Assembly: GCF_000423225.1 (NCBI RefSeq)
Contig: NZ_AUHO01000007.1
Location: 496,001 to 560,000, forward strand
DNA length: 64,000 bases
Source: Kaistia adipata DSM 17808
Lineage (GTDB): Bacteria; Pseudomonadota; Alphaproteobacteria; Rhizobiales; Kaistiaceae
Reading direction: 5' to 3'
Shown: positions 7,940 to 41,074 of the stretch, piece after piece
How the letters are laid out: every line of letters begins with the position of its first letter
Position numbering within the stretch: the stretch's first letter is position 1
Position numbers and translations under genes: made by a program
Notes under the pieces: model-generated
Databases searched by the model: none
Seen by the model: only the letters and a program-made list of their open reading frames with translations
What the model was told of the DNA's origin: nothing

Positions 7940-8643
7940 CCCACAATCTCGTCACCCTCGAAGGCGTCTCCAAGGCCTTCACCCTGCACCTGCGCGACGG
8001 ACTGAAGATCAGCGTCGTCGACAACGTCTCCTTTTCGGTCGCGCCCGGCGAATGCGTCGTGCTCGGTGGCCCGTCCGGCGCGGGCAAATCCTCCATCCTC
8101 AAGATGGTCTATGGCAACTACCGCTGTGACCACGGCCGCATCCTGGTGCGCGACGGCGACGAGTTCGTCGACGTCGCCACCGCCGAGCCGCGCCGCATCC
8201 TGGCGCTGCGCGGTTCGGTGATGGGCTATGTCAGCCAGTTCCTGCGCGTGATCCCGCGCGTCTCCGCGCTCGACATCGTCGCGGGTGCCGCGACGGACAG
8301 CGGCGTCGGCCGGGCCGAGGCGTGGGCGCGGGCCGAACGGCTGCTGACGCTCCTCAATGTGCCGGAGCGGCTCTGGAGCCTGCCGCCGGCGACCTTCTCC
8401 GGCGGCGAGCAGCAGCGCGTCAACATCGCCCGCGGCCTCGCCGCTGATCGCCCGGTGCTGCTCCTCGACGAGCCGACCGCCTCGCTCGACGCCGCCAACC
8501 GCGCCGTCGTCGTCCGGCTGATCGAGGAAAAGAAGCGGGCCGGTGCCGCCATCATCGGCATCTTCCACGACGAGGACGTCCGCGACCTCGTCGCCGACCG
8601 CATCGTCGACGTCACGGAATTCGCTGCCTCGAAGGCGGCCTGA
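7936..8643 (+). CDS. phnL: C-P lyase system ATP-binding protein PhnL
   Basis: A 235-residue ABC-type ATPase needed for the first step of phosphonate activation. It shows Walker A GPSGAGKSS, signature FSGGEQQRVNIARGL, Walker B LLLDEPTASLD and H-loop IFHDED. The length equals the family norm (~226-235). The ATG at 7936 overlaps the phnK stop. phnM follows after 17 nt. Confidence 0.92.
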   Translation: MTHNLVTLEGVSKAFTLHLRDGLKISVVDNVSFSVAPGECVVLGGPSGAGKSSILKMVYGNYRCDHGRILVRDGDEFVDVATAEPRRILALRGSVMGYVSQFLRVIPRVSALDIVAGAATDSGVGRAEAWARAERLLTLLNVPERLWSLPPATFSGGEQQRVNIARGLAADRPVLLLDEPTASLDAANRAVVVRLIEEKKRAGAAIIGIFHDEDVRDLVADRIVDVTEFAASKAA

Positions 8644-8660
8644 GAGCAATCGAGATCGAA

Positions 8661-9827
8661 ATGACCGAACCGACCGAATTCCTGATCGAGAACGCCAGCC
8701 TCGTCCTGCCCGACCGGGTGATCGAGTCCGGCTGGGTCGCCGTCGCCGATGGCAAGATCGCCGAGATCGGCGAAGGCGCGGCGCCCGAGCGCGGCATCGA
8801 TTTCCATGGCGACACGCTGGTGCCGGGCCTGGTCGAGCTGCATACCGACCACCTCGAGGCGCATTTCGCGCCGCGCCCGCATGTGCGCTGGCACGCGCTC
8901 TCCTCCGTGATGGCCTATGACGCGCAGATCGCGGCGGCCGGCATCACCACGGTGTTCGATTCGCTGCGCGCCGGCTCCGACGCCGATTCCGCCTCGATCG
9001 GCACCGACCTGGCGCTGCTCGCCGCGGCGATCGAGGAGGCGCGCGCGACCGGCCATCTCCGTGTCGAGCACAAGACGCATCTGCGTTGCGAGATCGCCTG
9101 CGACGACGTGCTGGAGCATGTCGAGGCCTATGCCGCGAAGTATCCGGTCCACATGATGTCGCTGATGGACCACACGCCGGGCCAGCGCCAGTTCAAGGAT
9201 CTCGAGACCTGGCGCCGCTACTACATGCGCAAGAAGCCGATGACCGACGCGGAGGCGAACAGCTTCATCGCCAACCGGCTCGAGTTGCACGCCAACAATG
9301 CCGGCCCGAACCGGCTTCGCCTCGTCGAGATCGCGGCCGAGACGGGCGCGGTGCTCGCGAGCCATGACGACGCCACGGCGGCGCATGCCGCCGAAGCCGT
9401 CGGCAATGGCGTCGGCCTCGCCGAGTTCCCGACCACCATGGAAGCGGCGCTGGCGCTCAACGAAGCCGGCATCCGCGTCATGATGGGCGGCCCGAATGTC
9501 GTGCGTGGCGGCTCGCATTCCGGAAATGTCGCAGCCGAAGAGCTCGCACGCGCCGGCGTTCTGGATATTCTGTCGTCGGATTACGTGCCTGCGAGTCTCC
9601 TGATGTCCGCCTTCGAACTGCCCCGCCGGATTCCCGGCATCGACCTCGCCGCCGCCATTCGCACGGTGACGCTGACGCCTGCGCAGGCGACGGGACTCGC
9701 CGATCGCGGCGCGATCGAGACGGGCCTCAGGGCCGATCTCGTCCGCGTCCATGTCAGCGGCGCGGCGAGCGAAAGCCCGACGCCGATCGTGCGCCAGGTC
9801 TGGCGCGAGGGCAGGCGGGTTTCGTGA
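8661..9827 (+). CDS. phnM: Alpha-D-ribose 1-methylphosphonate 5-triphosphate diphosphatase PhnM
   Basis: A 388-residue amidohydrolase-superfamily enzyme that removes pyrophosphate from the ribose triphosphonate intermediate to give the PhnJ substrate. The metal-binding start motif is ELHTDHLEAHF (near residue 58). Other family marks are 'HKTHLRCEI', 'LMDHTPGQRQF' and the late 'GGPNVVRGGSHSGN'. The length agrees with known PhnM (~378). ATG at 8661. Confidence 0.93.
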   Translation: MTEPTEFLIENASLVLPDRVIESGWVAVADGKIAEIGEGAAPERGIDFHGDTLVPGLVELHTDHLEAHFAPRPHVRWHALSSVMAYDAQIAAAGITTVFDSLRAGSDADSASIGTDLALLAAAIEEARATGHLRVEHKTHLRCEIACDDVLEHVEAYAAKYPVHMMSLMDHTPGQRQFKDLETWRRYYMRKKPMTDAEANSFIANRLELHANNAGPNRLRLVEIAAETGAVLASHDDATAAHAAEAVGNGVGLAEFPTTMEAALALNEAGIRVMMGGPNVVRGGSHSGNVAAEELARAGVLDILSSDYVPASLLMSAFELPRRIPGIDLAAAIRTVTLTPAQATGLADRGAIETGLRADLVRVHVSGAASESPTPIVRQVWREGRRVS

Positions 9828-9834
9828 GGACGGC

Positions 9835-10386
9835 ATGAACACGGGAGTCCTGGTCGCGATCGTCGGCCCGAGCGGGGTCGGCAAGGACACGCTGATCGGC
9901 CATGCCAAGGCGCAACTGGCGGAGGAGGACGGCTTCGTCTTCGTCCGCCGGCTCGTCACGCGCGGCGAGAACGCCTTCGAAGATCACGACACACTGGACG
10001 AGGCGGCCTTTACCGAGGGCGTCGCGAGCGGCCGCTTCCCTGTGTCCTGGCGCGCGCATGGCCTCGGCTATGCGCTTCCCGCCGCGACGGTCGAGGCGAT
10101 CGCGGCCGGCGCCGTCGTCATCTGCAATTTTTCGCGCGGCGCCCTAGTGGCGGCGCGGGAGCGTTTTCCGGCGGTGCGGGTCGTGGCGATCTCCGCGCCG
10201 GACGCGATCCTCGCGGCCCGGCTGATCGCGCGCGGCCGCGAGACGGAAGCGGGCGTCGCCGCCCGCCTGGCGCGCGAGGCGATCTGCGCCCGCGAGATCG
10301 ATCCCGATCTCACCATCGTCAACGACCGCCCGATCGAGCAGTCGGGCGGCGAGCTGGTGGCCTTTCTCCGGAGCCTGCGGGGCTGA
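9835..10386 (+). CDS. phnN: Ribose 1,5-bisphosphate phosphokinase PhnN
   Basis: A 183-residue P-loop kinase of the guanylate-kinase fold. The Walker A is GPSGVGKDT (residues 11-19), followed by 'FVFVRRLVTRG' and 'PVSWRAHGLGYALP', both typical of PhnN. It converts ribose 1,5-bisphosphate released by the pathway to PRPP. It begins 8 nt after phnM and is the last gene of the phn operon. No phnP is seen in the window. Confidence 0.92.
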   Translation: MNTGVLVAIVGPSGVGKDTLIGHAKAQLAEEDGFVFVRRLVTRGENAFEDHDTLDEAAFTEGVASGRFPVSWRAHGLGYALPAATVEAIAAGAVVICNFSRGALVAARERFPAVRVVAISAPDAILAARLIARGRETEAGVAARLAREAICAREIDPDLTIVNDRPIEQSGGELVAFLRSLRG

Positions 10387-10423: not shown

Positions 10424-10641
10424 TCCTGAGTGTCTGGCCCGTAATTGGACAAGGCCCGCCACGCCGCCTTCCCTTCACCTCTCCCTGAGGGAGAGGTCGG
10501 AGCGAAGCTCCGGGTGAGGGGGTAGGAAACCACCCGGAGAGGCCGCAAACCCTCACCCGCCGGCCTTCGGCCGTCGACCTCTCCCTCAGGGAGAGGTGAA
10601 AGTAGAGTGTCCCCTGCATTTCGGGCCAGACACTGAGGTGC
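10424..10641. repeat. Nested palindromic repeats downstream of phnN
   Basis: An outer pair of inverted arms (GTGTCTGGCCCG near 10430 and CGGGCCAGACAC near 10622) encloses a second element, 10474-10600. The inner element starts and ends with the CACCTCTCCCT-AGGGAGAGGTG palindrome and has inner arms CGGGTGAGGG/CCCTCACCCG. One palindromic element apparently inserted into another. The 500-nt gap 10387-10886 holds no gene that I can support. Confidence 0.75.
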
Positions 10642-10759: not shown

Positions 10760-10886
10760 GATGATGGTGGAGTGGTCGATGGGCCTGGAGGGCCCAGAGG
10801 CTTGGACAGCAGCCGACCGCCATTGGAAGCATCAATCCTCGCCCGGTTCCGAGTTGGAATGACGGGGCTGGAAGGCAGATCGTTCC

Positions 10887-11519
10887 CTAGAACCGCCGCG
10901 CCATGGTGAGGCTGCCGGCCGGCAGTTCCTCCGAGATCACCGGGGCGAAGCCGAGCTTCTCGTAGAAGGCGATCGCCCTGGCGTTCTCCGGGTGCACGTC
11001 GAGATGCATGCCCGGCGAGCCCGCCGCGGCGAGCGCGTCCATCAGATGCCGGAAGCCGCGCTTGCCCCAGCCCTGGCCGCGCGCCTCGGCCAGGAAGTCG
11101 ATATGGCCGTGCGAGGGAAAGGCGTGCAGCGCCTGCGGAAAGGGATAGGCCGGCCGGTGGATCCGGCTGCGCACCCAGTCGCTGCCCGTCCAGCGGCTCT
11201 CGTCCGCGCCCGGATCGGGGATCCGCCGCCGCAGCGATGACAGCCAGTCGCGCTCCATCCTCGCGTAGAAGTCGGGCGTGTCGAGCACGCCCATGACGTA
11301 GCCGGCGACGCCGTTCGGGCCGTCGAGCACGAAGGCGAAGCGCGGCTCGAGCACCAGATAGGGGCCGATGAACATGTGGCCGAGTGCGTCGGGGTCGTCC
11401 TCGCGCGCCGTGGCGTCCTTTCCGGCGTCTCCCGTGCGCAGGCAGACGCGGTAGACGGCCGGCATGTCGGCGAGGTCGGCCTGGCGCAGCCGGAATTCGC
11501 CCTCGGTCGGAAGGGGCAT
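10887..11519 (-). CDS. GNAT-family N-acetyltransferase
   Basis: A 210-residue single-domain GNAT enzyme. It has an N-terminal RLRQADLADMPAVYRVC strand-helix, an acetyl-CoA loop in EARGQGWGKRGFRHL, a D/H-rich strand 'HLDVHPENARAIAFYEKLGF' (HPENARAIAFYEKLGF in part), and a C-terminal MARRF. Its length and internal layout resemble eukaryote-like O-GlcNAcase-associated or general GNATs, but the substrate is unknown. It stands alone on the minus strand, 61 nt downstream of the SDR gene, which may share its transcript. Confidence 0.75.
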   Translation of the reverse strand: MPLPTEGEFRLRQADLADMPAVYRVCLRTGDAGKDATAREDDPDALGHMFIGPYLVLEPRFAFVLDGPNGVAGYVMGVLDTPDFYARMERDWLSSLRRRIPDPGADESRWTGSDWVRSRIHRPAYPFPQALHAFPSHGHIDFLAEARGQGWGKRGFRHLMDALAAAGSPGMHLDVHPENARAIAFYEKLGFAPVISEELPAGSLTMARRF

Positions 11520-11580
11520 GGGTCATCCTTGACGTGGAAGGCGCCCGCCCCGGAAGCGGGCGCGGGCGCCGAAGGGAGGT

Positions 11581-12324
11581 TCAGGCGAGGGTGCGGCCGC
11601 CATTCACCGCGAAGGTCTGGCCGGTGATGAAGTCGGCCGCCGGCGAGGCGAGGAAGGCGACGGTGCCGGCGACGTCCTCCGGCGTGCCCTGGTGGCCGAG
11701 CGGCACCAGGCGGCGATAATCCTCCAGCTCGTCCGCCGACGTGTCGGCATGGCGTTCGACCGGGATGAACCCCGGTTCCACGAGGTTGACGGTGATGCCC
11801 TCGGGGCCGAGTTCGCGCGCCCAGGAGCGCGTCAGGCCGACCATGGCGGCCTTGGCGGCGACATAGTGGCCGAAGTTCGGGTTGCCCATGTTGACCACTT
11901 CCGAGCCGATATTGATGACCCGGCCGGCATGGCGGCTGCGCCAGTCGGGCAGCACGGCCTGCAGGATCAGCAGCGGCGCCTTCACGAAGAAGCGCAGTTG
12001 GTCGAGATGGTCGTCCCAGCTCTGCTCCTCGATCGGGATCAGCGGCTGCGGGCCGGTGGCGTTGTTGACGATCACGTCGACGGGGCCGAGCTGGCGGCTG
12101 ATCTCGCTGATGCCGTGGCGGACGCTGGCCTTGTCGGTGACGTCGAACTTGAAGGCGGCGGCCTGGCCGCCCGCGCTGGTGATGGCGTCGACGACGCTGC
12201 CGGCGCCGCGATCGTCATGCGCGAAATTGACGGCGACGGACCAGCCAGCGGCGCCCAGCCCCTTGGCGATCGCCGCGCCCAGTCCACGCGAAGCACCGGT
12301 GACGAGTGCAATTCCCACGGTCAT
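11581..12324 (-). CDS. SDR-family oxidoreductase (3-oxoacyl-reductase type)
   Basis: A 247-residue classical short-chain dehydrogenase. The cofactor motif is TGASRGLG (residues ~9-16), NNATG stabilises the core, the catalytic Ser lies in INIGSEVV, and the YxxxK pair is YVAAK. The C-terminal 'ADFITGQTFAVNGGRTLA' is usual for FabG-like enzymes. The acidic-basic pattern after the Rossmann start does not settle NADP(H) versus NAD(H). There is no pathway context beyond the adjacent acetyltransferase, so the substrate is unknown. Confidence 0.8.
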   Translation of the reverse strand: MTVGIALVTGASRGLGAAIAKGLGAAGWSVAVNFAHDDRGAGSVVDAITSAGGQAAAFKFDVTDKASVRHGISEISRQLGPVDVIVNNATGPQPLIPIEEQSWDDHLDQLRFFVKAPLLILQAVLPDWRSRHAGRVINIGSEVVNMGNPNFGHYVAAKAAMVGLTRSWARELGPEGITVNLVEPGFIPVERHADTSADELEDYRRLVPLGHQGTPEDVAGTVAFLASPAADFITGQTFAVNGGRTLA

Positions 12325-12404
12325 CCTCCCGAAATGACGCCCGTCTGGTGCGGGCTGTCATGATCGAAGCACAGCGGGCCGGCCTTGTCTTCCGACTTCT
12401 GCGG

Positions 12405-13348
12405 TCAGGCCGTGCTCGAAAGCGGACGGGCGTCCTCGACGACCACCTGGAAGGTCCGGCCGGAGACGCTGTTCCGGCCGGCGGCCTTGGCCTTGTAGAG
12501 CTCGGCGTCGGCGGCCTTCACCCAGGCCTCCGGCGTGGCGCCCGGCACGCAGGCCGCGGTGGCGACGCCGATCGAGACCGAGACGGTGGCCGCCACGTCG
12601 GAGCCGGAATGGGGGATGTTCAGCGCCTCGACGCGCTCGCGGATGCCGTGCGCGATGTCCATGGCGCGGTCGTGTTCCGTCTCCGGCAGCACGCAGGCGA
12701 ACTCCTCGCCGCCATAGCGGATGGTCAGGTCGCTGGCGTGATGCACGGCCCGGTTCAGCGCCGCGGCGACCATCGTCAGGCAGCGGTCGCCGGCGGTGTG
12801 GCCGTAGAGATCGTTGAAGCGCTTGAAGAAGTCGATGTCGAGGATGATCACCGAGAGCGTGCCGCTGGTGAGCGCGAGGCGGGCCGTCTCGATGTTGAGC
12901 GCCTGTTCGAGGCGGCGGCGGTTGCCGAGGCCGGTCAGCGCGTCGGTGACCGCCAGCTTGGCGAGGTCGTCGCGCATCCGCTTCATCTCGAGATGGTTGC
13001 GCACGCGGGCGCGGACCACGACGGGCGAGATCGGCTTGGCGATGTAGTCGATGGCGCCGAGCTCGAGGCCCTTGACCTCGGCCTCCTGGTCGCCGAGCGC
13101 CGTGGTGAAGATCACCGGCACGTCGGCGAGCAGCGGGTCGCCCTTGAGGCTGGTGCAGACCTCGTAGCCGTCCGTGCCCGGCATCAGCACGTCGAGCAGG
13201 ATCAGGTCGGGCAGGGCGGCGCGGGCGGTGGCGATGGCCTCGTCGCCCGAGGTGGCGAAGTAGATGTCGTGATCCTCCTCGAGCACGGCGCTGAGGATCT
13301 CGATGTTGCTGACTTCGTCATCGACGATCAGGATCGATGGCCGCTTGT

Positions 13349-36442: not shown

Positions 36443-38245
36443 ATGACCAGGCTCACCCGCTTCTCCGTCGCGCCGCTCGCGACCATGACCCGCCGCCTCG
36501 CCGACGTCGCCTCCGGCCGCGCCGCGCCCGATCTCGTGATCAAGGGGGCGCGCGTCCTCTCGACCTATTCGGAGCGCATCCTGCCCGAGCGCGAGATCTG
36601 GATTGCGGGCGGCCGCATCGCGGCGGTAAAGCCCTCCGGCACGCACAGGGGCGGCGCCAGGGCGATCTACGACGCCAAAGGCGGGATTATCGCGCCGGGC
36701 CTCGTCGATCCGCACATCCACATCGAATCCTCGATGGTGACCGCCTGCGCCTATGCCGAGGCCGCGCTGCTGAACGGCACGACGACGATCTTCTGCGACA
36801 GCCACGAGATCGGCAACGTCATGGACGTCGCCGGCGTCGAGGCGATGCTGGAGGATGCGCGCGTCGCGCCGCTCTCGATCTTCCTCACCGTGCCGTCCAC
36901 CGTGCCGGCCACCTCGCCGGAGCTCGAGACGGCCGGCGGCGACCTGACGCCGGACAAGATCGCGGCTTTGTTCGACAATTGGCCGGAGGCGGTGGCGCTC
37001 GGCGAGAAGATGGATTTCGTCCCCGTCGCCATGGGCGACGAGCGCAGCCACGCGATCCTCGCGGCGGCGCTGTCGCGTGGGCGGCCGGTCTCTGGCCATG
37101 TCTATGGTCGCGAGTTCGTCGCGGCCTATGCGGCGTCCGGCGTCACCGACACGCATGAGGCGATCGACCGCGACATCGCCGACGACATGCTGGAAGCCGG
37201 CATCTGGCTGTTCCTGCGTGGCGGCCCGCCGACGACGCCGTGGCATTCGCTTCCGCAAGCGATCAAGACGATCACCGAGCTCGGTTCGTCGCACAAGCGC
37301 GTCGCGGTCTGCACGGACGATCGCGATGCCGACGACCTCCTGCATTTCGGCCTCGACTGGGTGGTGCGCGAGGCGGTCAAGGCCGGCATGTCGCCGGAGC
37401 AGGCCTGGTCGATGGGCTCGCTGCATGGCGCCACCCGCTTCGGCCAGGAGAACGAGATCGGCGGCCTCGGCGGCGGCCGTCGCGCCGACCTCGTGCTGAT
37501 GGGCGATGACCTCGACCCGCAATCGACGTGGTATGGCGGCGAGCTGGTCGTCGACGGGGCCAGGATCACGCCGCTCCTCGATGCCGCGCTCTCCGATCGC
37601 TACCAGTATCCGAAGGCGGCCTATCAGACGGTCAAGCTGCCCAAGGGCCTGAAGCTGACGCCGGAGCTTCCCTCCGGCCCCGGCACGCTGCACGCGATCC
37701 GCACCGAGCTTCCCGGCATCACGCTCGGCCACGAGCGGATCGAGATCGAGGCGGCGAACGACTGGCAGACCCTGTTCGAGCGCCATGGCCTCTGCTTCGT
37801 CACCGTCGTCGAGCGGCACGGCAAGTCTTCGGGCAACGTCGCGCATGGCGTGCTGTCGAACTTCACGCTGAAATACGGCGCGGTCGCCTCGTCGGTCGGC
37901 CATGACAGCCACAACATCATTGTCGCCGGCACTAACGAGCCGGACATGCAGCTGGCGCTGGAGACGGTCGCCGCGACCCAGGGCGGCGTCTGCGTTGTCG
38001 CCGACGGCAAGGTGCTGGCGAAGATCGACCTGCCGATCGCCGGCCTCCTCTCCGACAAGCGCGTCACCGAGGTGGCCGAGGAGACGAAGGCCTTGAAGGT
38101 CGAGTGGGAGAAGGCCGGCTGCTCGATTCCCTATATGGGCTTCAACCTGATCCCGCTCTCGGTCATCCCGGAAATCCGCATCACCGACAAGGGCTTGGTG
38201 CTGGTGCCGGAAATGGCGATCCAGACCCTGTTCGAGCCGGCCTGA
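36443..38245 (+). CDS. ade: Adenine deaminase
   Basis: A 600-residue amidohydrolase. The metal site starts [13 protein letters not shown]; the pattern [14 protein letters not shown] and the C-terminal-domain motif [14 protein letters not shown] are typical of AdeC-type adenine deaminase. It converts adenine to hypoxanthine. Next to methylthioribose salvage this is logical, because methylthioadenosine cleavage gives methylthioribose plus adenine. The ATG at 36443 is used; [12 protein letters not shown] at 36485 is an alternative start. The 350 nt upstream hold no gene that I can support. Confidence 0.9.
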
Positions 38246-38254
38246 GCCGCGAAA

Positions 38255-38289
38255 CGACAAACGCCCCGGCCATGGCCGGGGCGTTCGTT
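38255..38289. terminator. Bidirectional hairpin between the adenine deaminase and the peptide genes
   Basis: The perfect palindrome CCCCGGCCATGGCCGGGG, extended by ACG/CGT, forms a stem of more than 10 bp. It has TTCGTT on the plus side and TTTGTCGTTT on the minus side. It can end both the deaminase transcript and the leftward peptide transcript. Confidence 0.7.
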
Positions 38290-38327
38290 AAGCGCTTGGA
38301 CCGTCCGCAGGCGGCACGGCTAGCTCG

Positions 38328-38426
38328 CTACCCCTTCGGGCAGGGATCCGACGTCGGACAGATTGCGGCGATACGGCCGAGCGGCTCGCGCTTCGCCAGC
38401 GCCGGTTTTTCATAGATGCGCTTCAT
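38328..38426 (-). CDS. Small RiPP-precursor-like peptide 1 (32 aa, Cys pair)
   Basis: A 32-residue gene too short for normal gene callers. The leader MKRIYEKPALAKREPLGRIA ends at AA (residue 21), and the variable C-terminus is ICPTSDPCPKG with a C-x5-C pair. Y5-E-K-P-A-L10 fits the Y-x-x-P-x-L leader motif used by lasso-peptide recognition elements. GGAGGGA lies 6 nt before the ATG. It follows peptide 2 by 30 nt in the same direction. Modification enzymes are not nearby, so its nature is inferred from the leader-core pattern across five paralogues. Confidence 0.7.
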   Translation of the reverse strand: MKRIYEKPALAKREPLGRIAAICPTSDPCPKG

Positions 38427-38456
38427 GCAGGTCCCTCCGTCTCGCGGTTACGGCGG

Positions 38457-38552
38457 CTAGCTCTCGCAGGATTCCGAAATTGGGCAGAGGGCCGCGATGC
38501 GGCCGAGCGGTTCGCGCTTCGCCAGTGTCGGCTTCTCATAGTCACGCTTCAT
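38457..38552 (-). CDS. Small RiPP-precursor-like peptide 2 (31 aa, Cys pair)
   Basis: A 31-residue peptide with the leader MKRDYEKPTLAKREPLGRIA plus A, and the C-terminus LCPISESCES with C-x5-C. Its leader differs from peptide 1 at only two residues but at seven further codons synonymously, which points to selection on the protein. GACGGGGAAA lies upstream of the ATG. A small palindrome (TCCCGATTTTCGGGA, 38593-38607), ~41 nt upstream, may belong to its promoter or operator. Confidence 0.7.
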   Translation of the reverse strand: MKRDYEKPTLAKREPLGRIAALCPISESCES

Positions 38553-38592
38553 GCAATTTCCCCGTCTCACAGAAGCCCCCGCGCCAAAATTG

Positions 38593-38607
38593 TCCCGATT
38601 TTCGGGA
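38593..38607. promoter_or_regulatory. Small palindrome upstream of peptides 2 and 1
   Basis: TCCCGATTTTCGGGA has 6-bp arms with a TTT centre. It lies 41-55 nt upstream of the peptide 2 start and downstream of the terminator at 38725-38760, where a promoter for peptides 2-1 is needed. No convincing -35/-10 pair is seen. Confidence 0.3.
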
Positions 38608-38724
38608 TATGACGCAAGGGAGTGCCGGCTGGATGGCGTGCCGCAACGTCATTTGTCCGCCGGCGCTGCAATTCCGCAACAAGGGCCGTGTCGTTCCGTA
38701 CGAGGTGGCCGCAGGAATACGGAC

Positions 38725-38760
38725 AAAAGAAAACCGCCTCCCGCATGTGCAGGAGGCGGC
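38725..38760 (-). terminator. Rho-independent terminator after peptide 3
   Basis: On the minus strand, an 8-bp GC-rich stem (GGAGGCGG at 38752-38759 pairing with CCGCCTCC at 38734-38741) is followed by TTTTCTTTT. It lies ~60 nt after the peptide 3 stop and divides the array into a right part (peptides 5, 4, 3) and a left part (2, 1). Confidence 0.85.
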
Positions 38761-38819
38761 TTCGGGATCACTGGACCACGCGGGCGCTGCCCGGCGCGAA
38801 CGTCGCAGGCGGCCAGCGC

Positions 38820-38915
38820 TTACTTGCCGCCTGGCTGGCTGGTCGGCACCGCGGCGATGCGGTCGAGCTTCTCGCGCTTGGCGAGGGCGGGTGTCTCGTA
38901 GGTCTTCTTGGTCAT
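38820..38915 (-). CDS. Small RiPP-precursor-like peptide 3 (31 aa)
   Basis: A 31-residue peptide: leader MTKKTYETPALAKREKLDRI followed by AA, and C-terminus VPTSQPGGK without Cys. Y6-E-T-P-A-L11 again fits Y-x-x-P-x-L. It is nearly identical to peptide 4 up to 'VPTS' and then diverges. The ribosome-binding site is weak (no G-run just before the ATG). It is followed by a clear terminator, so it is the last gene of the right sub-array. Confidence 0.7.
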   Translation of the reverse strand: MTKKTYETPALAKREKLDRIAAVPTSQPGGK

Positions 38916-38983
38916 TTCAGTACGCTGGTCGGTCGCCTTCGCGCAGCTTCCTGCGTCGAAGGCGACAATCTCGCGATCGCGTC

Positions 38984-39073
38984 TTAGCCAAAGTTCGACG
39001 TGGGCACCGCGGCGATGCGATCGAGCTTCTCGCGCTTGGCGAGCACAGGTGTCTCATAGGTCTTCTTGGTCAT
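38984..39073 (-). CDS. Small RiPP-precursor-like peptide 4 (29 aa)
   Basis: A 29-residue peptide with the leader MTKKTYETPVLAKREKLDRI plus AA and the short C-terminus VPTSNFG. Upstream is TTGGGGGACATTT, the same leader-RNA sequence type (TTGGGGGATATC) as before peptide 5. This shows that the duplication covered the translation start as well as the gene. It lies 68 nt upstream of peptide 3. Confidence 0.72.
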   Translation of the reverse strand: MTKKTYETPVLAKREKLDRIAAVPTSNFG

Positions 39074-39177
39074 AAATGTCCCCCAACCCACGGAGCCGCC
39101 GCTTCAGTGCGGCCGGATGTGGTTCTCATTGCGATAGGATTTAGTGTTTGGCGAAGGTTGCTAGGCAAGCCGCCAAG

Positions 39178-39279
39178 CTAGCCCGGAGGCGGGCAGTTCG
39201 ATCCCGCACAATCCGCGGCGATGCGGTCGAGCTTCTCGCGCTTGGCGAGGACGGGCGCCTCGTAGGTCTTCTTGGTCAT
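39178..39279 (-). CDS. Small RiPP-precursor-like peptide 5 (33 aa, Cys pair)
   Basis: A 33-residue peptide and the first gene of the array. The leader is MTKKTYEAPVLAKREKLDRI plus AA. The C-terminus DCAGSNCPPPG has a C-x4-C pair and a Pro run. GGGGGA lies 5 nt before the ATG. It lies 160 nt downstream of the FGGY-kinase stop; that gap contains a 10-bp hairpin (39339-39367). Confidence 0.72.
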   Translation of the reverse strand: MTKKTYEAPVLAKREKLDRIAADCAGSNCPPPG

Positions 39280-39338
39280 GATATCCCCCAACGGATTGAC
39301 GTAGCGTTCCCTCGTTCCCAGCTTCGCGGACGGGATGC

Positions 39339-39367
39339 AACTGCTTCCTGATTATTTGGAAGCAGTT
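39339..39367. promoter_or_regulatory. 10-bp perfect inverted repeat upstream of the peptide array
   Basis: AACTGCTTCC and GGAAGCAGTT are perfect arms around a 9-nt AT-rich loop (TGATTATTT). It lies 60-88 nt upstream of peptide 5. It lacks a T-run on the minus strand, so an operator or a leader-RNA hairpin is more likely than a terminator for the kinase gene. Confidence 0.5.
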
Positions 39368-39439
39368 CTGAAAAACCGTTGCGGGGATGCCGCACCCTCG
39401 CGGAACCGGCCGGGCCGCCGATTCCGCAGAGGGAGGGCG

Positions 39440-41074
39440 TCAGAGCACGGCGGCGAGTCGCTCCCGCGCCGCCCGGTCCTGGGCCTGGAGGGCCAGGAAC
39501 AGCTCGTATTTGACGTCGTGGATCGCCGCCGTCCTGCCGCCGGCCGGCTTCTGCTCGGCGCTCAGGCGCGACATCCGGTCGATCGCCGCTCCGGCGTCCG
39601 GATAGGCGCCGGCGGCGAGCGCGCCGAGAATGGCGGCGCCGAGCAGCACGGGCTCGCCGGTTTCGGGGATCGCGATGGTCAGTCCCGTGGCGTCGGCCAT
39701 GATCTGGCGGACCAGCGGGCTCTGCCCGGCGCCGCCCGAAACGACGATGGTGTCGAGCTCGGCGCCCTGTTCGGCCAGCGCCGCGACGATCTGGCGGGCG
39801 CCGTAGCCGAGGCCGCAGAGCCCGGCGAGATAGAGCCGGGCCAGGCTGTCGATGTCCTCGTCCATGTCGAGCCCGGCGATCACCGCGCGCGCGTCCGGAT
39901 CGGCGTTGGGCGAGCGGTTGCCGAGGAATTCGGGCACGACCTGGATGGAAGCGGCGAGGCGGGCGAGCGCCTCCGGCGTGGCGGCGAGCGCGCCGACGCG
40001 CGCTTCCAGATAGGCGAGCAGCGACTTGCCCTCGGCCTTGGCTTTCGCCGTCGCCTCGGCATGGGCCGGGTGCAGCCTGACCAGATGGTCGATGGCGGCG
40101 CCGGCCGCCGACTGGCCGCCCTCGTTCAGCCAGAGGCCGGGCAGCATGGCAGAGAAATAGGGGCCCCAGACGCCGGGCACGAAGCGCGGCTCCACCGTCG
40201 TCGTCATGGCGCAGGCCGAGGTGCCGAAGATATAGGCCATCTGCCGCTTGGCGTCGGTCGTCCGGTTCGCCGTGTCGCGGGCGCCGATCGAGCCGACGCC
40301 GCCGGCATGCGCATCGATCAGCGCCGCGCCGACCGGGATGCCCGGCTTCAGGCCGAGTTCGTCGGCCGCCGCCTGCGTCAGCCCGCGGCCCAGCGGTGTG
40401 CCGGGATCGACGACATTGGTGCCGATGCGGGCGAAGCCCTCGTCGGCGAGGGCGCCGAGGCCGATCTGGCGGAAATAGCCCTCGTCCCAGCGCTTTTCAT
40501 GCGCGAGATAGGTCCATTTGCAGGTGACGGTGCAGACCGAGCGGTCGAGGCTGCCGGTGGCGCGGTAGGTGAGCCAGTCGGAAAGATCGAAGAAGTGCTT
40601 CGCCGCGGCGAAGCTTTCGGGCAGGTTTTCCGAAAGCCAGAGCAGCTTCGGCGTTTCCATCTCGGGCGAGATGACGCCGCCGACATAGGCAAGCACCGGG
40701 TGTTTCGTCGCGTTGATCCGCCGCGTCTGCTCGGTGGCGCGATGGTCCATCCAGACGATGATGTTGCGGTTCGCGTCGCCGGAGCGGCTGACCGTGACGG
40801 GCTTGTCGTCGGCGTCGATCAGCACCAGCGAGCAGGTGGCGTCGAAGCCGATGCCGGCGACATCCGCCGGTGCGACCCTGGCGGTCGCCATCGCTTCCCG
40901 GACGGAGGCGGCAATCGCCTGCCAGATGTTCTCCGACGATTGTTCCACGACGTCGCCCGGCTCGTGCCAGAGCGTGATCTCGCGCTTGGCGGCCGCCTTC
41001 AGCACGCCGTCCGCGTCGAAGATGCCGGCGCGGGCGCTGCCCGTGCCGACATCGATGCCGATGTAGAAGCTCAT
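39440..41074 (-). CDS. FGGY-family carbohydrate kinase (pentulose/polyol kinase type)
   Basis: A 544-residue two-domain kinase. The N-terminal phosphate site is YIGIDVGTGSARAGIFD, and the FDATCSLVLID and 'IIVWMDHRA' blocks are typical of the FGGY pentulose-kinase group (ribulokinase-like). The C-terminal domain has 'TIVVSGGAGQSPLVRQIMAD' and PVLLGAAILGALAAG. The length fits this group. The next gene upstream encodes a polyol-type Zn dehydrogenase 21 nt away, so the kinase probably phosphorylates its ketose product. The substrate is unproven. Confidence 0.87.
   Translation of the reverse strand: MSFYIGIDVGTGSARAGIFDADGVLKAAAKREITLWHEPGDVVEQSSENIWQAIAASVREAMATARVAPADVAGIGFDATCSLVLIDADDKPVTVSRSGDANRNIIVWMDHRATEQTRRINATKHPVLAYVGGVISPEMETPKLLWLSENLPESFAAAKHFFDLSDWLTYRATGSLDRSVCTVTCKWTYLAHEKRWDEGYFRQIGLGALADEGFARIGTNVVDPGTPLGRGLTQAAADELGLKPGIPVGAALIDAHAGGVGSIGARDTANRTTDAKRQMAYIFGTSACAMTTTVEPRFVPGVWGPYFSAMLPGLWLNEGGQSAAGAAIDHLVRLHPAHAEATAKAKAEGKSLLAYLEARVGALAATPEALARLAASIQVVPEFLGNRSPNADPDARAVIAGLDMDEDIDSLARLYLAGLCGLGYGARQIVAALAEQGAELDTIVVSGGAGQSPLVRQIMADATGLTIAIPETGEPVLLGAAILGALAAGAYPDAGAAIDRMSRLSAEQKPAGGRTAAIHDVKYELFLALQAQDRAARERLAAVL

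Follow-up and report, generated by a model that had tools for sequence, protein, structure and literature searches.

A tandem array of short peptide precursor genes in Kaistia adipata, likely served in trans by an unlinked, cyclase-less RiPP locus

How can five tiny genes give rise to modified peptides when no modifying enzyme is encoded beside them? The question is raised by the window analysed here, a stretch of 64,000 nucleotides from Kaistia adipata DSM 17808 (contig NZ_AUHO01000007.1, positions 496,001 to 560,000), in which an earlier note, made from the letters alone, had marked five minus-strand genes as a tandem array of precursors of ribosomally synthesized and post-translationally modified peptides (RiPPs). 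We consider it likely, judging from the sequence comparisons below, that the array encodes satellite precursors for a cyclase-less, B2-containing RiPP pathway, whose enzymes would act in trans from an unlinked locus on another contig. The five open reading frames (ORFs) and their peptides are exactly as the earlier note gave them:

39178..39279, minus strand: precursor gene, peptide MTKKTYEAPVLAKREKLDRIAA followed after the predicted cleavage site by DCAGSNCPPPG; Shine-Dalgarno-like GGGGG upstream
38984..39073, minus strand: precursor gene, peptide MTKKTYETPVLAKREKLDRIAA followed after the predicted cleavage site by VPTSNFG; Shine-Dalgarno-like GGGGG upstream
38820..38915, minus strand: precursor gene, peptide MTKKTYETPALAKREKLDRIAA followed after the predicted cleavage site by VPTSQPGGK; no clear Shine-Dalgarno sequence
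38457..38552, minus strand: precursor gene, peptide MKRDYEKPTLAKREPLGRIAA followed after the predicted cleavage site by LCPISESCES; Shine-Dalgarno-like stretch upstream
38328..38426, minus strand: precursor gene, peptide MKRIYEKPALAKREPLGRIAA followed after the predicted cleavage site by ICPTSDPCPKG; Shine-Dalgarno-like stretch upstream

In the alignment of the five peptides 15 columns do not vary; 14 of them belong to the leader and one is a core Ser, in agreement with a constant leader and divergent tails. Six Kaistia genomes carry genes of this kind at one and the same site, with five in the present genome (G000) and in G002, four in G007 and G010, six in G011 and one in G012, and their cores differ. 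Over these 25 array-site genes from six species the leader has proportions of synonymous (pS) and nonsynonymous (pN) differences of 0.479 and 0.150, respectively, resulting in a ratio of nonsynonymous to synonymous substitution (dN/dS) of 0.22, and the leader differences number 2284 at third, 864 at first and 841 at second codon positions. The cores, compared unaligned, gave a pS of 0.619 and a pN of 0.629 and show no leader-like constraint. The five tiny genes are genuine, and purifying selection acts on their leader, which is conserved at the protein level in relatives. The leader consensus is YEKPxLxKREKLxxVxA or YEKPxLAKRExLxRIAA.

The array is not the whole of the family in this genome (4.84 Mb in 12 contigs, with the array on contig C3). 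A profile built from eight members, the first model, found 11 members at E <1e-6, with the next match at E 0.38; the later model was built from all 11. The six further members lie at C1:913323, C1:1251419, C1:1497961, C2:200576, C2:742469 and C3:262515. Ten of the 11 precursors, ORFs of 28-33 codons, are away from the enzymes described below, and the leader of the array is also that of the single enzyme-side precursor. The neighbours of the orphan precursors have no common function except phage genes at some of them.

No match to PqqD, Transglut_core3 or Asn_synthase was found in the window at E 0.001, as the earlier note had said. The genome-wide search for recognition, protease and cyclase genes that it proposed was run, and revealed a RiPP recognition element (RRE) gene and a B2 peptidase gene together at about 740.5-745.1 kb of contig C2, unlinked to the array on C3, and no plausible cyclase gene. 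B2, at C2:743176, is the single Transglut_core3 (PF13471) gene of the genome. The stronger of the two PqqD matches, C2:742847 (41.8 bits), adjoins B2, and the weaker, C5:193028 (22.8 bits), has as neighbours ORFs that by eye are glycosyltransferase-like. The precursor gene C2:742469, on the minus strand, is divergent from the PqqD and B2 genes on the plus strand. The locus reads as follows (coordinates of L004):

8525-9253, minus strand: Crp-type regulator
9264-10364, minus strand: NTP_transf_5 protein (nucleotidyltransferase-like protein, NTase), passing the Pfam cut-off
10466-10561, minus strand: precursor of the family
10766-11056, plus strand: PqqD-like RRE, passing the Pfam cut-off
about 11047-11481, plus strand: B2, NCBIfam lasso_biosyn_B2 (NF033537) score 57.4 against a cut-off of 33
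11484-12491, plus strand: HPr-kinase-like protein, HprK_rel_A score 28.4 against a cut-off of 200, zero Pfam matches
12501-13085, minus strand: TetR

A scan of a species-genome collection with the B2 alignment yielded at least 80 enzyme loci, 59 of the 80 listed being from Mesorhizobium. Within the flanks covered, PqqD, B2, kinase and NTase matches occur together at 79 of the 80, and L158 has the B2 match only. The kinase motif H..SG.GK[ST]T..DD is present in all 79 locus kinases, with the His, Lys and Asp-Asp invariant in the 26 retained alignment rows; the NTase motif KG..DxD is likewise found in 79 of 79, and the B2 pattern in 78 of 80, both exceptions retaining the Cys and His. The AlphaFold2 model of the kinase (predicted local distance difference test, pLDDT, 90) matches phosphoenolpyruvate (PEP) carboxykinases, enzymes related in fold to HPr kinase, with an E of 4e-9. 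The NTase model (pLDDT 89) yields weak matches of the nucleotidyltransferase fold, namely MenT1, ANT(2'') and FKRP, at E 0.03-0.13, none of them at 0.001. A sequence search of the PDB gave no match at E 0.1 for the kinase, B2 or NTase, and the sole solved relative of the RRE is TfuB1 (6jx3, E 0.027).

The presence of leaders follows the presence of the peptidase. Among 61 genomes, the leader profile at E 0.01 found nine positives, six of them among the 14 genomes of the genus, and the other eight genus genomes gave zero matches; the likeness of the five genes exceeds what chance would give. PF13471 was searched in 21 of the 61 (the 14 genus genomes and seven more from the family, with all leader-positive ones among them) and was found in exactly the six leader-positive Kaistia genomes, plus G015 and G016. 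Within the 14 Kaistia genomes, leader and B2 are always present or absent together, six having both. In a sample of 297 genomes of the order, given both searches (leader model of 27 rows, E 0.001), leaders were found in nine and PF13471 in 25, of which 20 score above the family cut-off, and all nine leader genomes are within those 25. A tree of Crp and FGGY kinase (G001 with Crp only; midpoint root) places the six bearing species and G003 in one group, within which G000, G011 and G003 are separated from the others with a support of 100 and G003 is joined to G011 with one of 62. G003 has neither leaders nor PF13471. Its array site is empty, the stop codons of the flanking adenine deaminase and kinase genes being 341 nt apart compared to 1,194 in the window, and at its enzyme site Crp adjoins TetR, where tblastn picked up nothing resembling NTase, RRE, B2 or kinase and a credible leader is lacking as well. 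The outgroups G004 and G005 likewise have Crp next to TetR. By parsimony, the pattern in the genus points to a single gain and a single joint loss rather than to many independent events. This co-occurrence and joint absence, with RRE and B2 on C2 and the array on C3, support the first of the earlier note's two options, that distant enzymes serve the array.

Precursors lie apart from the enzymes in other genomes as well. The six-gene array of G011 is intact at about 1.27 Mb from B2, and the frame beside the enzymes (L077 7800-8130), with a partial leader, no stop in the stretch read and no leader match, looks decayed. G069, from another family, has a three-gene array about 431 kb from its sole PF13471 gene, and no Asn_synthase homologue was found in the 13 kb around its enzymes. 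On the single contig of G159, a Mesorhizobium-like genome that is 93% identical to the Mesorhizobium locus L139 over 11.6 kb, a cyclase-less locus lies at 5.60 Mb and the precursors at 2.84 Mb and 0.39 Mb, with zero family matches in the 5578-5612 kb around that locus. Family matches (a few partial or weak) are present at 46 of the 80 listed enzyme loci. The remaining 34 have no precursor in their flanks, which are full 10-kb flanks in 28 of them, and a looser pattern over these 34 found no credible precursor.

Several of these loci have further features. G159 carries a cyclase-bearing lasso-type cluster (L229 9167-12339) 12 kb from its cyclase-less cluster (L230 891-3643), and four more genomes of its genus label carry two PF13471 genes; with two such genes per genome, two RREs may need to distinguish similar leaders. 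The enzyme locus of a Rhizobiaceae metagenome-assembled genome has ten precursor-like genes in a row (L150 11487-13422), and between its kinase and NTase genes are ORFs resembling, by eye, an acyl-activating enzyme and a carrier protein.

The peptides from the listed loci were compared for the features that an enzyme might read. There are 130 distinct peptides, and dropping six without YxxP left 124. Ala is at the expected position -1 in 121 of them, 112 with the Tyr at -17 and nine with the Tyr at -18. Among these 121, position -2, where Thr is usual in lasso leaders, is Ala in 45, Thr in 44, Val in 29, Ser in two and Ile in one, and it is Ala in all five genes of the window. The core is typically about 10 residues and does not exceed 13 in 109 of the 121. 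Ser is found at core positions 3-5 in 93 of 121 cores, against a mean of 44.8 (standard deviation 5.0, maximum 62) in 2000 within-core shuffles, a significance overstated because the peptides are related. In addition, two Cys flank a Ser in several Kaistia cores and in two G159 cores.

From these features we infer the following chemistry. The PqqD-like RRE would bind the Y(-17)xxP(-14)xL(-12) element of every leader. The HPr-kinase-like enzyme would then phosphorylate the conserved core Ser at position 3-5, or sometimes a Thr. The nucleotidyltransferase-like protein might place a second group, for example a hexose, a sugar phosphate or a nucleotide, on the phospho-Ser. Finally, the cysteine peptidase B2 would cleave after the conserved Ala(-1), releasing linear peptides, typically of 7-12 residues and in some cases with a Cys on either side of the Ser. 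If one enzyme set serves several unlinked precursors in this way, duplication of a gene of about 30 codons would suffice for a new product, and prophages could carry precursor genes without the enzymes.

Described systems offer precedents. An RRE has been reported to bind its own leader at about 5 nM and to present it to B2 (PMC5067487). In the Bsf system of Bradymonas the YxxPxL spans -17 to -12 and the kinase, BsfK, has a His, a Lys and an Asp-Asp pair as catalytic residues; its target is core Ser3, an S3T variant is also phosphorylated, and B1 accelerates the reaction. The same paper predicts a Gly1-Asp8 ring in BsfA and describes Ile or Val at -2 in some lasso systems (PMC10368454). For the kinases PadeK and PsmK the target is a C-terminal Ser, and PsmN has been linked to a hexose on phospho-Ser (PMC9266682). 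The present locus is like these phosphorylated lasso systems (Bsf, paeninodin, pseudomycoidin) in having B1/RRE, B2 and a His/Lys/Asp-Asp kinase, and sometimes an NTase, and it has the leader spacing of Bsf. However, they have a cyclase and a ring acid, whereas no cyclase was found here and the cores are short.

A second precedent is the family of linear polyphosphorylated peptides (LPP), from the lpp locus of Paenibacillus alginolyticus (Nat Commun 2026), a cyclase-less system with RRE, kinase, NTase and a SipW-like peptidase, in which LppK phosphorylates core Ser3 and which its authors call restricted to Bacillota (PMC13381572). Similar to LPP as described there, the present system has a YxxP leader, a discrete RRE, an HprK-like kinase and an NTP transferase without a macrolactam cyclase, the kinase being recognized by its motif and a similarity below cut-off. 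The early core Ser (Ser3 in LPP, mostly 3-5 here) and the patchy distribution are also alike. In contrast, LPP clusters include a signal peptidase of the SipW-like kind together with an MsbA-like exporter, and the locus here has B2. No SpI (SipW-like) peptidase was seen in the Crp-TetR interval of G000, where no SpI profile was run and outside which the genome was not searched, and no MsbA-like transporter in its enzyme interval, other neighbourhoods having been glanced at only. The LPP clusters, from Bacillota, further contain one to three precursors each, with a core of 45 residues in the peptide studied; the present family is mainly from Hyphomicrobiales, with cores of about 10 residues, and in G000 has 10 of 11 precursors unlinked to the enzymes and two on prophages. 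The leader consensus differs as well, YxxPxVLxHQxIxFETxxS in LPP against YEKPxLxKREKLxxVxA. The main text of PMC13381572 has none of the words Proteobacteria, Alphaproteobacteria, Pseudomonadota, Mesorhizobium or orphan. A literature survey by title and the start of the abstract found no description of the present system; it left subscription journals mostly uncovered and is no proof of novelty. The pathway is assigned to neither class, because no cyclase was found (lasso) and no SpI peptidase was seen at the locus (LPP), although we expect it to operate as LPP and the phosphorylating branch of lasso pathways do. The products are probably linear, Ser-phosphorylated and B2-trimmed peptides, LPP-like but with a different peptidase.

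The surroundings of the array offer context rather than pathway:

38730..38763, minus strand: terminator-like hairpin (intrinsic), 15 pairs with a T-rich tail, minimum free energy -28.4, z -4.51, closing the three-gene unit
38257..38288, no strand: near-perfect palindrome, 94% complementary, z -3.75, separating the array from the convergent adenine deaminase gene
36443..38245, plus strand: adenine deaminase gene (Pfam), bordering the array site by conserved synteny in six Kaistia genomes
39440..41074, minus strand: FGGY carbohydrate kinase gene (Pfam), the other conserved border of the array site by synteny

The hairpin divides the array into a three-gene and a two-gene unit. The palindrome is possibly a shared terminator of the array and the adenine deaminase gene, although the terminator search made no call there. 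A G-rich Shine-Dalgarno-like stretch before four of the five genes is, by eye, the sole element shared by their upstream regions, for which no motif search was made. No sigma-70-type promoter was detected in 38100-39600, and an Rfam scan of 37500-40000 gave zero matches at the gathering threshold. Profile-library scans of the five peptides returned matches below cut-off only: positions 1-11 of DUF5972 (PF19397) align with the N-terminal residues of all five at no more than 17.5 bits (cut-off 22.6), and positions 2-11 of lasso_cyano (NF033528) with the N-terminus of one at 12.1 (cut-off 33).

Two of the distant precursors in G000 are carried by prophages. The one at C3:262515 (L083 6498-6590) is flanked by a tail gene on one side, with a tape measure gene and more tail genes beyond it, and by an endolysin gene on the other, and is oriented oppositely to them; the one at C2:200576 (L084 6577-6672) is about 0.9 kb from another endolysin gene. 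G010 has one precursor near an endolysin gene and two on contig C7 near an integrase gene. Among IMG/VR viral contigs, L238-L241 carry this precursor subtype, L238 and L239 matching the two G000 prophages and L240 and L241 being others, L241 presumably metagenomic by its number; in all four the precursor runs against the late genes and has an endolysin gene within about 1.5 kb on one side, and tail genes on the opposite side are shown for L083 and L238. A second leader subtype occurs on two more viral contigs, bringing the total with precursors to six. A pattern scan of the same viral collection with the B2 alignment, B2 being the one enzyme sought there, found no relative, and a collection of phage records had no match to one prophage precursor. 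At L070, L072, L080, L081 and L085, where one or two neighbours each were scanned, no clear phage call was made. The precursor at C7:1975 (L069) is outside the DKSALLQ subtype. We suggest, tentatively, that temperate phages might exploit a host RiPP factory, itself supplied by dispersed single-gene substrates, through precursor genes near the endolysin that come without any of its enzymes, so that each prophage would add its own short phosphopeptide. Such a prophage peptide would perhaps be a lysogen-specific signal, an immunity peptide or a weapon.

Several observations weigh against the proposed pathway. Regarding the chemistry, 15 of the 121 cores have only Thr at positions 3-5 and 13 have neither Ser nor Thr. 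The kinase is without a Pfam match and stays below the HprK_rel_A cut-off (28.4 compared to 200), and the structure matches listed for its model are PEP carboxykinases, with no HPr kinase among the best 50. The Kaistia enzyme interval contains no exporter, and deletion of lppN altered no detectable LPP product (PMC13381572). Regarding the action in trans, an ORF with a weaker likeness to precursors adjoins the enzymes of G069 (L235 4996-5289, E 6e-5), and the RRE of the lasso-type cluster of G159, 12 kb from the cyclase-less locus, could serve the distant precursors too. Regarding the co-occurrence, PF13471 is unaccompanied by a leader match in 16 of 25 genomes of the order sample, and G026, the ninth leader-positive genome of the 61, has a weak leader match (E 0.008) without PF13471. 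The hypergeometric probability of 5e-11 in the 297-genome sample is overstated, because the genomes are related (five of the nine share one genus and two of the nine are Kaistia) and because the leader model was itself derived from precursors gathered near such loci. Within the genus, the co-occurrence amounts to one bearing clade plus one joint absence.

The array might instead encode lasso-peptide precursors, with a lasso cyclase elsewhere in the genome, as the earlier note had hinted, but beyond leader, RRE and B2 no lasso feature was supported. The YxxPx[L] leader goes together with a discrete B1/PqqD-like RRE, whose binding is predicted from motif and profile, and with a lasso-type B2 leader peptidase, recognized by profile and conserved Cys and His, whose activity is predicted; the cyclase-bearing neighbour in G159 speaks for this reading too. 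However, a macrolactam cyclase (C) was found neither at the enzyme locus nor, as a plausible gene, genome-wide in Kaistia. By blastp with one AsnB query, 79 of the 80 listed enzyme loci (68 of 80 with full flanks) have no Asn_synthase homologue. A PF00733 search of the own genome and of 12 genomes (G000 included again), which picked up the lasso-type cyclase of G159 at 218.8 bits, gave only partial matches of 21.2-28.6 bits in G002, G007 (92% complete), G010, G011 and G012, that is, no full-length Asn_synthase in five of the six bearing Kaistia genomes. The full-length Asn_synthase of G000 was rejected as the lasso cyclase, with scores of 496.9 against 267.1 for the asparagine synthase model and of 191.3, far under the cut-off of 525, for the lasso cyclase model. 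A lasso core has a ring acid, Asp or Glu, at position 7-9 plus enough length for a threaded tail. Here such an acid is present in 19 of 121 cores and absent from 102, one of the five in the window having it (LCPISESCES), and the cores are short. The reading as RiPP-type precursors with a YxxPxL leader holds good, but lasso peptides as their products are very unlikely. Elsewhere, G015, G016 and G069 have one full-length-type PF00733 match each (186.7-261.7 bits), none near their B2, and the Roseovarius locus L148 (6322-8169), the sole one of the 80 listed with an Asn_synthase-type neighbour, may represent a genuine lasso cluster or a transitional one.

Constrained leaders with variable cores, and precursors on viral contigs where the pattern scan saw no B2, would also be expected of decoys or modulators that occupy the RRE or kinase and tune the processing of the enzyme-side precursor, the prophage copies competing with the host pathway. 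A pure RRE decoy would have no need of a core Ser above shuffles or of Ala(-1) in 121 of 124 peptides, and in G011 array and enzymes persist next to an enzyme-side precursor that looks decayed, which makes such a role unlikely. The product of the array is not known and its neighbours are genes of sugar and purine catabolism, so the peptides could be small unmodified proteins, a toxin, a regulator or similar, that merely resemble RiPP precursors; we hold this to be very improbable given that all nine leader genomes of the order sample have the peptidase family, that the leader matches that of the enzyme-side precursor and that both are jointly absent from G003. The degenerate-looking precursor of G011 and the array sizes from 1 to 6 could likewise point to decaying remnants of a formerly clustered RiPP locus, but a leader dN/dS of 0.22 over the 25 array-site genes speaks against this idea, to which we give hardly any weight.

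Satellite precursors for a cyclase-less, B2-containing pathway acting in trans thus remain the likely reading, to which the family-wide core Ser, the kinase and nucleotidyltransferase, the six more members and the prophage-borne copies are additions beyond the earlier note. RiPP mining usually begins at genes adjoining the enzymes. If the proposed pathway is true, a class of short, probably phosphorylated peptides of the Hyphomicrobiales would be largely hidden, B2 would work without a cyclase partner, and LPP-like peptides would reach from Bacillota into Alphaproteobacteria with a different peptidase. Phages, in turn, would supply substrates for the peptide-modifying enzymes of their hosts.

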